Shown here piece by piece: positions 24,388 to 27,856 of a stretch of 64,000 nt of DNA. A model generated the notes under the pieces. It saw only the letters and a program-made list of their open reading frames with translations, was not told the DNA's origin and did no database searches. The translations under genes and the position numbers were made by a program. Source of the DNA: Alphaproteobacteria bacterium (lineage in GTDB: Bacteria > Pseudomonadota > Alphaproteobacteria > JANQMY01); NCBI GenBank assembly GCA_028289425.1, contig JANQPL010000010.1, positions 1 to 64,000 on the forward strand, read 5' to 3'. The first letter of the stretch is position 1, and every line of letters begins with the position of its first letter.

Positions 24388-25122
24388 TTAACGCGGCGTG
24401 TTGCGCAAATCGGCTGACAACTTGCCGACGGTGACCAGATTGCGCACCAGGGCTTCGAATAATCCTTTATTGGTGGCCTCGGTCGGCGTGCCGATGAAAT
24501 TCTGTTTCGCATCCAAATCGTACGCAAAGCACTCGCCGGTCGCGATGCGGTGTTGCCAGAGCTGTTTCTTGAAATTGGGCGCACGCGCATCGAGCAACTT
24601 GATGAGTGCATCGGCAGTTTCATAAGTAAGCAAACCTTCCGCATACATCTTATCGAGCCGCCGGCGCACACCCGCATCGGTCATAATGTCGCTGTTGATC
24701 TTGGCTTGGCCCGTTTTTGTTTCCGTAATCAGAACTTCCGAAAACGCGCCCGGCTTTTCTCTTTTGACGAATACCCCGTCGAGCCCATTGTTACGGCCAT
24801 ATTGGGATGGCAGTTGAACATACCCTTGCGCCGTTACCATCACGGCGGTCAGCATCTCCCCAAAATCGCCCTGTTGCCGGGTACTCTTAAAATGAATGGG
24901 GCCCAGATAGCTTTCCAGCGTGTGCGGTCCGCCTTTGCGTTGAGGCCGGTTGGCGGGACCCGGCTTTTGTCTCAAGAAGGTAACGCTGGGCGGCGCCTTG
25001 CGTGCGTCCAAATAGTGGAACTGACGGCGGCGCCTCTTCGCAAATCGATCAAGCACCGGTTGGAGCGCCAACAAGGCGGTCAGAGCACCCAACAGAAACA
25101 GTATGACAACACCATCGGCCAT
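24388..25122 (-). CDS. Membrane-anchored PD-(D/E)XK nuclease-like protein
   Basis: 244 residues from ATG 25122. Residues 4-22 form one transmembrane helix, followed by a basic stop-transfer stretch (KRRRRQ). The cytoplasmic domain carries what looks like a PD-(D/E)XK core: Glu89 in GDFGEML, Asp115 in NNGLDGVFVK and the E-x-K of LITETKTG (134-136), with a C-terminal helical part. That spacing fits restriction-endonuclease-fold enzymes such as VRR-NUC or NERD proteins. ATG 25122 follows the small upstream gene by 20 bases, so both are one operon. It could also be an inactive nuclease-fold protein. The motif reading is mine, not a search result. Confidence 0.65.
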   Translation of the reverse strand: MADGVVILFLLGALTALLALQPVLDRFAKRRRRQFHYLDARKAPPSVTFLRQKPGPANRPQRKGGPHTLESYLGPIHFKSTRQQGDFGEMLTAVMVTAQGYVQLPSQYGRNNGLDGVFVKREKPGAFSEVLITETKTGQAKINSDIMTDAGVRRRLDKMYAEGLLTYETADALIKLLDARAPNFKKQLWQHRIATGECFAYDLDAKQNFIGTPTEATNKGLFEALVRNLVTVGKLSADLRNTPR

Positions 25123-25141
25123 AATGAAAAGCGCCTGCCTC

Positions 25142-25369
25142 CTAGGGAGGTGAGTCCAGATACCAATTGTCGCCCGCATTGGTACGGCGCGGCTGAGGTG
25201 CCGGTTCCGGTGCCGTCACGGGCGCCGGTGCGGCTTGCTGCTGAACCGGCCCCGCCTGTCCGTCTTGGTTCACAATCGATCGGATCGACCAGGCGGAAAC
25301 GCCAATAAAAAACAGGATCAAAATTGTCGTGAAACCCGTCTGAATGGCGGAAAGCCATGATGCGCGCAA
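25142..25369 (-). CDS. Small single-pass membrane protein
   Basis: 75 residues from a TTG codon preceded by AGGGGGG. One hydrophobic helix (TGFTTILILFFIGVSAWSI) is followed by a proline/alanine/glutamine-rich tail that ends RRTNAGDNWYLDSPP. Such tails reach into the periplasm or cytoplasm as flexible linkers. It ends 20 bases before the nuclease-like gene, so the products may form a membrane complex. Not recognised otherwise. Confidence 0.6.
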   Translation of the reverse strand: MRASWLSAIQTGFTTILILFFIGVSAWSIRSIVNQDGQAGPVQQQAAPAPVTAPEPAPQPRRTNAGDNWYLDSPP

Positions 25370-25565: not shown

Positions 25566-25602
25566 TTAGGGTTATTACCCTAAATTAGGGCACAGACCCT
25601 AA
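25566..25602. promoter_or_regulatory. Tandem inverted-repeat operator upstream of the P450
   Basis: Two 18-bp palindromes with identical arms stand side by side: TTAGGG-TTATTA-CCCTAA (25566-25583) and TTAGGG-CACAGA-CCCTAA (25585-25602). They are one base apart and end 13 bases before the P450 ATG, just ahead of the GGGAGG site. Identical arms with unrelated spacers mark a protein-binding site. The obvious candidate is the TetR-family regulator at the end of the same operon. Confidence 0.8.
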
Positions 25603-25615
25603 AAGGGAGGAAATC

Positions 25616-26875
25616 ATGGCTGAAGCAATTCAAGTTCCAACCGCGTCGGATCTGCCGGACCCTTGGACCGTGCCGCTGGACAAAATGAACGTGGCCAATG
25701 CCGAATTGTTCAAACATGACAAGCATGGCGAATATTTCCGGCGCCTGCGCAAGGAAGATCCGGTTCACTACTGCCCGGACAGCGAATTCGGCGCCTATTG
25801 GTCGATCACCAAGTTCAACGACATCGTTGCCGTGGATTCGAACCACAAAGTCTTCTCGTCTCAGGACAACATTGTCATCGGCGACGCGGAGCCTGAATTC
25901 CTCACGCCCATGTTCATCGCGGAAGATCCGCCGAAACACGACTACCAACGCAAGGCCGTGACGCCAGCGGTCACACCGGGTCAGCTTGCGGATCTTGAAG
26001 GGCTGATCCGTCAGCGTGTCTGCGCGCTGCTTGACGACCTGCCCGTCGGCGAACGCATCAATTGGGTCGAGCACATTTCCAAAGAACTCACCACACAAAT
26101 GCTCGCGACACTGTTCGACTTTCCCTTTGAAGACCGGCACTTATTGCCCTACTGGTCGGACGCATCGACTACCTCTCCCGCCGTTGGAGCGCCCGATGTT
26201 ACGTATGAACAGCGCCACGAGATCCTTCAGGAATGCTTGAACTATTTCGGCCGCCTGTGGCAGGAGCGCGCCGAGCAGCCGCCCAAGTTCGATTTCATTT
26301 CCTTGCTCGCCCACAATCCGAAAACCAAAGATATGATCAAGGACCCGATGGAGTTCTTGGGGAATTTGATCCTTCTCATTGTGGGTGGCAATGACACCAC
26401 GCGAAACTCCATTTCGGGCGGCGTTATCTTCCTCAATAAGTTTCCTAAGGAATATGACAAGTTGCGGGCGGACGTATCGCTCATCCCGAACATGGTCTCG
26501 GAAATCATCCGGTTTCAAACGCCGCTCGCCCATATGCGGCGCACCGCCTTGGAAGACATCGAATTCCAAGGCAAGCAAATCAAAAAGGGCGATCGTGTTG
26601 TCATGTGGTACGTCTCGGGCAATCGCGACGAAGAAGTGATCGACCGGCCGGACGAATTCATCATCGACCGCGACAAGGCCCGCCACCATGTGTCCTTCGG
26701 CTTCGGCATCCACCGCTGCATGGGCAATCGGGTTGCCGAAATGCAGCTCCGCATTCTTTGGGAAGAAATCATGAAGCGCTTCCACAAGATCGAGCTGGTG
26801 GGTGAGCCCGAGCGGGTCACGTCCAACTTCGTTCTAGGGTACACGGATGTACCCGTCATCGTTCACGCCAAATAG
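25616..26875 (+). CDS. Cytochrome P450, CYP153-like
   Basis: 419 residues, soluble haem-thiolate monooxygenase. The proximal Cys368 lies in FGFGIHRCMGNR. The I-helix oxygen-activation motif is GGNDTTRN (257-264), and SEIIRFQTPLAHMRR contains the ExxR. The beginning (FRRLRKEDPVHYCPDSEFGAYWSITKFND) and the C-terminal FVLGYTDVPVIVHA closely follow the CYP153 alkane/fatty-acid terminal hydroxylases. Substrate could be an n-alkane, fatty acid or cyclic hydrocarbon. The ferredoxin ten bases downstream is its likely electron donor. Expression is probably controlled through the double operator just upstream. Confidence 0.9.
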   Translation: MAEAIQVPTASDLPDPWTVPLDKMNVANAELFKHDKHGEYFRRLRKEDPVHYCPDSEFGAYWSITKFNDIVAVDSNHKVFSSQDNIVIGDAEPEFLTPMFIAEDPPKHDYQRKAVTPAVTPGQLADLEGLIRQRVCALLDDLPVGERINWVEHISKELTTQMLATLFDFPFEDRHLLPYWSDASTTSPAVGAPDVTYEQRHEILQECLNYFGRLWQERAEQPPKFDFISLLAHNPKTKDMIKDPMEFLGNLILLIVGGNDTTRNSISGGVIFLNKFPKEYDKLRADVSLIPNMVSEIIRFQTPLAHMRRTALEDIEFQGKQIKKGDRVVMWYVSGNRDEEVIDRPDEFIIDRDKARHHVSFGFGIHRCMGNRVAEMQLRILWEEIMKRFHKIELVGEPERVTSNFVLGYTDVPVIVHAK

Positions 26876-26884
26876 GATTGCCCC

Positions 26885-27205
26885 ATGCCCAAAGTGACCT
26901 TTATTGAACACAATGGCACGCGCCACGAATTGGACGCCGATTCCGGCTTGTCTCTCATGGAAGTGGCGGTGGCCAACAGCGTGCCCGGCATCGATGCCGA
27001 TTGCGGCGGCGCCTGTGCATGCGCCACCTGCCACGTCTATGTGGACGAGAGTTGGCTCGGCAAGGTCGGCGACAAGACAGACATGGAAACCTCCATGCTC
27101 GATTTTGCCGAAGGCGTACAGGACAGCTCCCGTCTTGCGTGCCAAATCACTCTGTCTGCGGAGCTTGACGGCCTGATTGCGCAGCTTCCGGAATCTCAAC
27201 ATTAG
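26885..27205 (+). CDS. [2Fe-2S] ferredoxin, adrenodoxin/putidaredoxin type
   Basis: 106 residues. Cluster ligands are Cys40, Cys46, Cys49 and Cys86 (C-x5-C-x2-C...C); Cys44 is extra. [21 protein letters not shown] and [15 protein letters not shown] are the conserved putidaredoxin-type segments. It shuttles single electrons from a ferredoxin reductase to the P450. No reductase gene lies in the operon, so one must be supplied from elsewhere. It starts nine bases after the P450 stop. Confidence 0.94.
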
Positions 27206-27211
27206 AGTCAC

Positions 27212-27856
27212 ATGAAAACCAAAGACCGCATACTGAACGAAGCGCGCCGCCTGTTTAACGAACAGGGGTTCGGGAATGTCACCACGGCAGCGTTGGCGCA
27301 GGCGGTGGGGATTGCCGAGGGCAATCTTTGGTACCACTTCAACAACAAGCGCGCGCTGGTGGAAGCGATTACGCTTGATTTCATCAAGAGCGCCAATGGC
27401 CGGCTGGAGCTGCGCCCGGTCGATGATGACAAGGTAATCGACGAATATGCCGCGTTTCTGGAGGCCTTTGCCCGCGAGATCACCGAATACAGTTTTCTAT
27501 ACCGGGACCAAGCCGATTACGGCGAGCACAGCGCCGCATTGTTAGAGGAACTGCCCAAGCTTTACGGGGAAAGCCAGCGCCAATTCCGCGAATTCTTCAG
27601 CGTGATGGTGCGCACCGGGCTGCTCGACTGGCCGGAAAAGCAATTGGGTGACCTGGCCGTCAATGCATCAATCATCTTGCGCTATGGGCTGGAATATTTT
27701 CGCGAGATCGGCGAAGAGCACCCATCAACAGCGGAAACAATCCGCCAGATCTTCGCGCAGCACCTCACCTTGTTTGAGCACAGGCTGGTGCCAACCGCCG
27801 CCCGCCGCCTGCGCCGCGCATTCTCGGACATCGCTGCAGCGGTGGAGGGGGCCTAA
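27212..27856 (+). CDS. TetR family transcriptional regulator of the P450 operon
   Basis: 214 residues. The N-terminal HTH (KDRILNEARRLFNEQGFGNVTTAALAQAVGIAEGNLWYHFNNKRAL) is a clear TetR domain. The C-terminal ligand-binding part, with ITEYSFLYRDQADYGEHSAALL, belongs to the TetR_C group with an AlkX-like or fatty-acid-type regulator shape, though the ligand is unknown. It starts six bases after the ferredoxin stop, the third gene of the operon. It probably binds the two TTAGGG-N6-CCCTAA palindromes at 25566-25602 and is released by an aliphatic effector. Confidence 0.92.
   Translation: MKTKDRILNEARRLFNEQGFGNVTTAALAQAVGIAEGNLWYHFNNKRALVEAITLDFIKSANGRLELRPVDDDKVIDEYAAFLEAFAREITEYSFLYRDQADYGEHSAALLEELPKLYGESQRQFREFFSVMVRTGLLDWPEKQLGDLAVNASIILRYGLEYFREIGEEHPSTAETIRQIFAQHLTLFEHRLVPTAARRLRRAFSDIAAAVEGA

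Follow-up and report, generated by a model that had tools for sequence, protein, structure and literature searches.

Two exact palindromes with TTAGGG and CCCTAA arms, lying immediately before a CYP153-type cytochrome P450 gene in an alphaproteobacterial genome, are almost certainly where the repressor encoded by the last gene of the same operon binds. We place the probability of the complete model at roughly 0.9; in this model a double operator is occupied by an autoregulated, locally encoded repressor that would block RNA polymerase until an inducer is present. The operon was located in a stretch of 64,000 nucleotides, referred to here as the window, and the coordinates of its features are collected in Table 1. 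A preliminary description of this DNA had proposed that the palindromes are the operator of the operon's terminal TetR gene, and hence that the gene is autoregulated. That proposal is supported by our analysis, which consisted of sequence comparison only. Specifically, it is favored by the presence of one operator for each PF13972 repressor in the genome, by TTAGGG-type sites before CYP153 in six of six operons, and by operator arms that track the recognition helix of the neighboring regulator.

Table 1. Positions of the operon, its candidate promoter and the putative operator within the window.
Feature	Position	Strand	Basis or remark
Candidate -35 element, TTGTAA	25551..25556	+	weak consensus
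Operator palindrome 1, TTAGGG arm, TTATTA spacer, CCCTAA arm: TTAGGGTTATTACCCTAA	25566-25583	+	exact match
Candidate -10 element, TTATTA/TATTAC, within the spacer of palindrome 1	25572..25578	+	spacers of orthologous operons
Operator palindrome 2, TTAGGG arm, CACAGA spacer, CCCTAA arm: TTAGGGCACAGACCCTAA	25585-25602	+	exact; predicted to span transcription start and early leader
Ribosome-binding site, GGGAGG	25605-25610	+	sequence; 5 bp upstream of ATG
CYP153A-type cytochrome P450, probable terminal alkane hydroxylase	25616..26875	+	PF00067; nearest solved relative 3rwl (CYP153A7), E 6e-159
2Fe-2S ferredoxin, probable P450 redox partner	26885..27205	+	PF00111; 9 bp past P450 stop
TetR-family repressor, putative binder of both palindromes	27212..27856	+	PF00440 and PF13972; 6 bp past ferredoxin stop
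Helix-turn-helix, residues 24-43: TTAALAQAVGIAEGNLWYHF	27281..27340	+	alignment to TetR

When the P450 was compared with characterized families, its match to CYP153A7 was by far the strongest, with CYP124 and CYP125 entries scoring far weaker, and the enzyme is a probable terminal alkane hydroxylase. The gene adjoining it encodes a ferredoxin of the kind expected to serve a CYP153. Since so short a gap separates the ferredoxin stop from the TetR gene, the latter is probably co-transcribed. Its product combines a TetR_N helix-turn-helix (PF00440, E 6.2e-15, which passes the cut-off) with an all-helical C-terminal PF13972 domain (E 6.6e-17), and its AlphaFold2 model (pLDDT 93) gave 3nnr and 3rh2 as the best PDB matches. 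These entries, Maqu_3571 and Sama_0099, are the closest solved PF13972 structures by full-length sequence and fold, although 3nnr has an S-P-G-N-L-Y helix, unlike the E/W helix of this repressor. Their PDB titles name only TetR-like regulators, and we found no operator or ligand for either protein. Nine CYP153-like genes are present in the genome, and the exact operator was found at this one only, being absent from the other eight. A domain search of the divergently oriented gene at 24388-25179 found no known domain.

In another family, five genomes have an orthologous repressor gene (40-43% identical) directly downstream of CYP153, and each of these operons has TTAGGG-like sites just 5' of the CYP153 start. 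Four of them carry single sites (TTAGGGTATAAACCCTAA, TTAGGGTATATACCCTAG, CTAGGGTATACACCCTAC and TTAGGGTATAAACCCTAG), while the fifth, in G747, carries a tandem pair with 20-bp spacing; G745 and G747 were inspected only once the motif had been fixed. By this comparison the repressor has a conserved palindromic site, its putative operator, at its own promoter. The comparison was also informative about the promoter itself. The spacer hexamers of the single-site orthologues read TATAAA, TATATA, TATACA and TATAAA, several of which are good -10 hexamers, and a TTG lies 16-17 bp upstream of the spacer hexamer in the window, L047, L101 and L102 (it is not clearly retained in L196/L197). Since the orthologous spacers resemble -10 elements and the window itself offers TTATTA/TATTAC in combination with TTGTAA, the operator probably overlaps the -10 region. 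The elements from which we infer this promoter are weak matches, and a generic promoter scan found none.

In the layout that we propose, the probable -10 element would fall within palindrome 1, with palindrome 2 lying over the start of transcription and the early leader; binding would thereby keep RNA polymerase from the promoter. The recognition helix of each subunit would read one TTAGGG arm in the major groove, and two dimers could therefore sit side by side. Because the repressor gene is the third on the transcript, the repressor would limit its own supply. An inducer, for which a hydrocarbon or a derived alcohol or fatty acid is the likeliest candidate, would bind the C-terminal domain and cause the repressor to leave the DNA, whereupon CYP153A, ferredoxin and new repressor would be produced together. 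It is improbable that the protein binds these sites but mainly activates, or that the second site has another role than plain repression, such as promoter choice. Sequence alone does not give the direction of control, and of the other five CYP153-TetR operons four have no second site. However, the sites in the window overlap the probable -10 element and transcription start, where bound proteins normally block initiation.

The genome contains three PF13972 genes and three tandem TTAG-N10-CTAA operators, one adjoining each gene, with arms of the GGG, GGT and GAG types, respectively. The GGG-arm operator precedes the CYP153-ferredoxin-TetR operon described above. A second pair, with TTAGGT arms 19 bp apart (G000:C7:223463-223499), lies upstream of a GMC oxidoreductase gene, which has a TetR gene of its own behind it, and the third, of the TTAGAA/TTAGAG type (G000:C3:44559-44597), lies immediately upstream of its TetR gene. 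The GMC oxidoreductase and PF13972 TetR genes with their tandem TTAGGT sites (L011:5258-7500, equivalent to G000:C7:221257-223499) make up a second operon of the same design. It is very unlikely that the main protein binding the TTAGGG pair is another regulator, for example either of these PF13972 paralogues or some unrelated protein. Cross-binding is conceivable, since the operators of the two paralogues have the same TTAG core and are likewise tandem; however, each paralogue has an adjoining operator of its own with different arms, and orthologues of the repressor in the window accompany TTAGGG in other families.

The association between PF13972 genes and such sites was also examined across the class. 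PF13972 genes are rare, occurring in 26/372 class genomes and 0/14 named control genomes. A search of 385 class genomes by pattern alone returned seven tandem sites, all seven beside a PF13972 gene, while a backward control returned one site. Upstream of 44 class regulators, collected through protein or family searches independently of the motif, we counted 35 TTAG-type palindromes distributed over 23 regulators; another ten sites, from five loci that had been retrieved by the motif itself, were left out. The control rate of two such palindromes in 273,665 bp predicts fewer than one for these upstream regions. A worldwide tandem scan gave 11 stretches, five of which adjoin a TetR gene and six of which do not; the latter (in Phocaeicola, Zoogloea and Mitsuokella) are probably unrelated repeats. 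Zoogloea has TTAGGC-N6-GCCTAA arrays with 21-bp spacing (L080:7351-7410, L081:5583-5642 and L078:1693-1731), and no related TetR gene was found in the stretch examined. A phylum-wide scan gave a single match outside the class, with different arms. As a separate observation, in two gammaproteobacterial MAGs, one of them SAR86, a TTAGGG tandem operator lies upstream of a TetR gene, behind which come genes for a LolA-like protein and an uncharacterized protein (L077:409-5369 and L072:1169-3837); in L077 an MMPL transporter gene follows the latter two.

Residues E36 and W40 of the repressor align with Gln38 and Tyr42 of TetR, which, along with Arg28, contact bases in tetO (PMC7102968). Among related repressors, the residues at these two positions sorted with the operator arms. 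Specifically, all eight regulators with sites that carry E and W have GGG arms, Q and T/S are accompanied by GGT arms (6/6 with sites), and P and Y, with a GT/ST helix 2, are accompanied by GAG-type arms (10/10 with sites). The helix-turn-helix class predicted the arm without exception in the 24 regulators with sites, and 0 of 100,000 label shuffles matched this, a figure that overstates the statistics because close relatives are not independent. Since the classes correspond for the most part to clades, few of the switches are truly independent; on the tree the GGT class represents one switch nested within GGG types. In a separate clade, three P/Y repressors have a different site (TTAGTA/TTAGAA) that lies at a distance, and many P/Y repressors have no site. 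Among the related repressors with sites, letters 5-6 of the arm correlate with the recognition-helix residues at the positions of TetR Gln38 and Tyr42. The PF13972 repressors of L111:4670, L113:5460 and L160 have the helix TVDIAN..SPGNLYYHF, with TTAGTATGCGCTTTCTAA or TTAGAATGCGTTTTCTAA located 0.7-1.2 kb upstream, and may represent a fourth arm class. Two of the five TetR-linked stretches of the worldwide scan, in a Rhodobiaceae MAG (L075:7141-7176) and in Roseibium (L079:5217-5255), have tandem TTAGG[A/T]C palindromes, and their TetR neighbors lack PF13972 and have the helix SRGNFY; as members of another TetR subfamily, they were omitted from the arm-residue comparison.

The covariation also bears on whether the palindromes act as RNA, with palindrome 2 forming a leader hairpin beside the ribosome-binding site that tunes translation or mRNA stability. 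Palindrome 2 could indeed fold into a hairpin (6-bp stem, 6-base loop) immediately 5' of GGGAGG. We nevertheless regard a role in RNA as highly doubtful, since leader folding was no better than that of shuffled sequence (z -0.36), orthologues retain palindrome 1 over the -10 region mostly without palindrome 2, and the arms vary jointly with the DNA-reading residues of the neighboring repressor.

Returning to the operator as a DNA site, both palindromes are exact and, as the preliminary description had stated, they differ in their spacers and have centers 19 bp apart. The end of palindrome 2 is separated by 2 bp from GGGAGG and by 13 bp from the ATG. Genome-wide statements made here are based on pattern searches, and the search for the motif elsewhere in the genome that had been recommended at the outset returned no further exact copy of TTAGGG-N6-CCCTAA in 5.4 Mb; a site with one mismatch (G000:C12:455596) lies across what may be a coding frame and was left out of the counts. 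The case for paired binding on one face of the DNA is weak. At 10.5 bp per turn, 19 bp corresponds to 1.81 helical turns, about 69 degrees short of two; tandem spacing across relatives ranges over 18-21 bp, and most of the other CYP153-TetR operons have only the one site. Although the 86 bp around the pair are AT-rich (63%), a chance or functionless low-complexity repeat can practically be dismissed, since first-order Markov simulations of the window (n=150) yielded no pair of perfect palindromes with identical 6-bp arms 18-22 bp apart, compared with the one in the window, and conservation of the same placement in other families strongly contradicts it.

A third family contributed 29 more species with orthologous repressors, and sites matching at 10/12 positions or better were found upstream of the repressor gene in 26/29. 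The sites are tandem in 21 species, all with a spacing of exactly 19 bp; shuffled sequence gave 13/720. The constant spacing suggests that it is under selection in that lineage. The repressor gene of one member, L103, is not trailed by CYP153. In several genomes of this family the targets of extra sites are luciferase-like monooxygenases, FMO-like monooxygenases and a short-chain dehydrogenase, suggesting a hydrocarbon-oxidation regulon controlled in trans there. TTAGGG-type sites before oxygenase or SDR genes, with the repressor elsewhere, were observed at L232:1501, L234:1501, L239:1501, L245:1501, L242:1501, L236:1501 and L244:1501. In G092 a tandem site likewise accompanies a fatty-acid-hydroxylase-like gene that has an E/W TetR gene behind it. 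No clear site was found upstream of the E/W repressors of G241, G748, G749 and G766. A homologue on a Cupriavidus plasmid has neither the E/W signature nor the site and is neutral. In the sister species, the orthologous repressor (L045:814-1371, G001:C180; 55% identical) has in-frame stops, and TAGGG-N6-CCCTA was absent from the genome, a pattern resembling joint loss of regulator and operator; the assembly is fragmented, with 10% contamination. If PF13972 repressors follow a readable code, one genome could run three mutually insulated tandem-operator switches. We slightly favor the joint proposal of such a code (TTAG fixed, with E/W giving GG, Q/T giving GT and P/Y giving AG at letters 5-6), three insulated tandem switches in one genome, and an E/W repressor of a related family that runs a set of oxygenase genes, for luciferase-like and FMO-like monooxygenases, from a separate locus as a broader hydrocarbon regulon.

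Several characterized systems resemble parts of this arrangement. AlkX is a TetR repressor of alkB/alkW1 in Dietzia and Mycobacterium that represses that operon and itself, and its DNA binding is lowered by palmitic acid, which arises from alkane oxidation (PMC9430723, PMC8784404). As with AlkX, a TetR-family gene lies directly downstream in an alkane hydroxylase operon; unlike the actinobacterial system, in which the regulator is linked to the membrane diiron enzyme AlkB and rubredoxins, the genes here encode CYP153 and ferredoxin and belong to an alphaproteobacterium. CypR, an AraC/XylS-type protein whose gene is divergent in Dietzia, activates CYP153 in Alcanivorax and Dietzia, and in a review of the field the experimentally supported CYP153 regulators are AraC-type CypR proteins, while the TetR-type alkane repressor is AlkX, acting on alkB-type genes (PMC8784404). 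Control of a CYP153 alkane hydroxylase cluster is likewise predicted here, but no AraC/XylS regulator adjoins the P450 gene, and the linked regulator is of the TetR type and lies within the same transcript. With TetR(B/D) and tetO the system shares the helix-turn-helix, a palindromic operator and the placement of E36/W40 at base-contacting positions. It differs in its palindromes, which are 18 bp long, have TTAGGG arms and are spaced by 19 bp, where tetO is a 15-bp operator, and in having Ala at residue 26 where TetR has Arg28.

Autoregulation by TetR proteins is ordinary, and systems of this general kind are familiar. Our literature search, which most subscription papers fell outside, returned no TTAGGG TetR operator, no PF13972 operator and no TetR-type CYP153 repressor in Proteobacteria; what looks new to the literature is the operator, its target CYP153 and the match between residues and arms. 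Alkane hydroxylases of the CYP153 type are widespread in the environment. The analysis provides a specific, testable layout of repressor, operator and promoter for CYP153 in Alphaproteobacteria, which could be used as a hydrocarbon-responsive sensor part. Moreover, it supplies putative operator sequences for PF13972, a TetR subfamily with solved structures but blank function, and the residue-to-base correspondence would let regulons be predicted from sequence.
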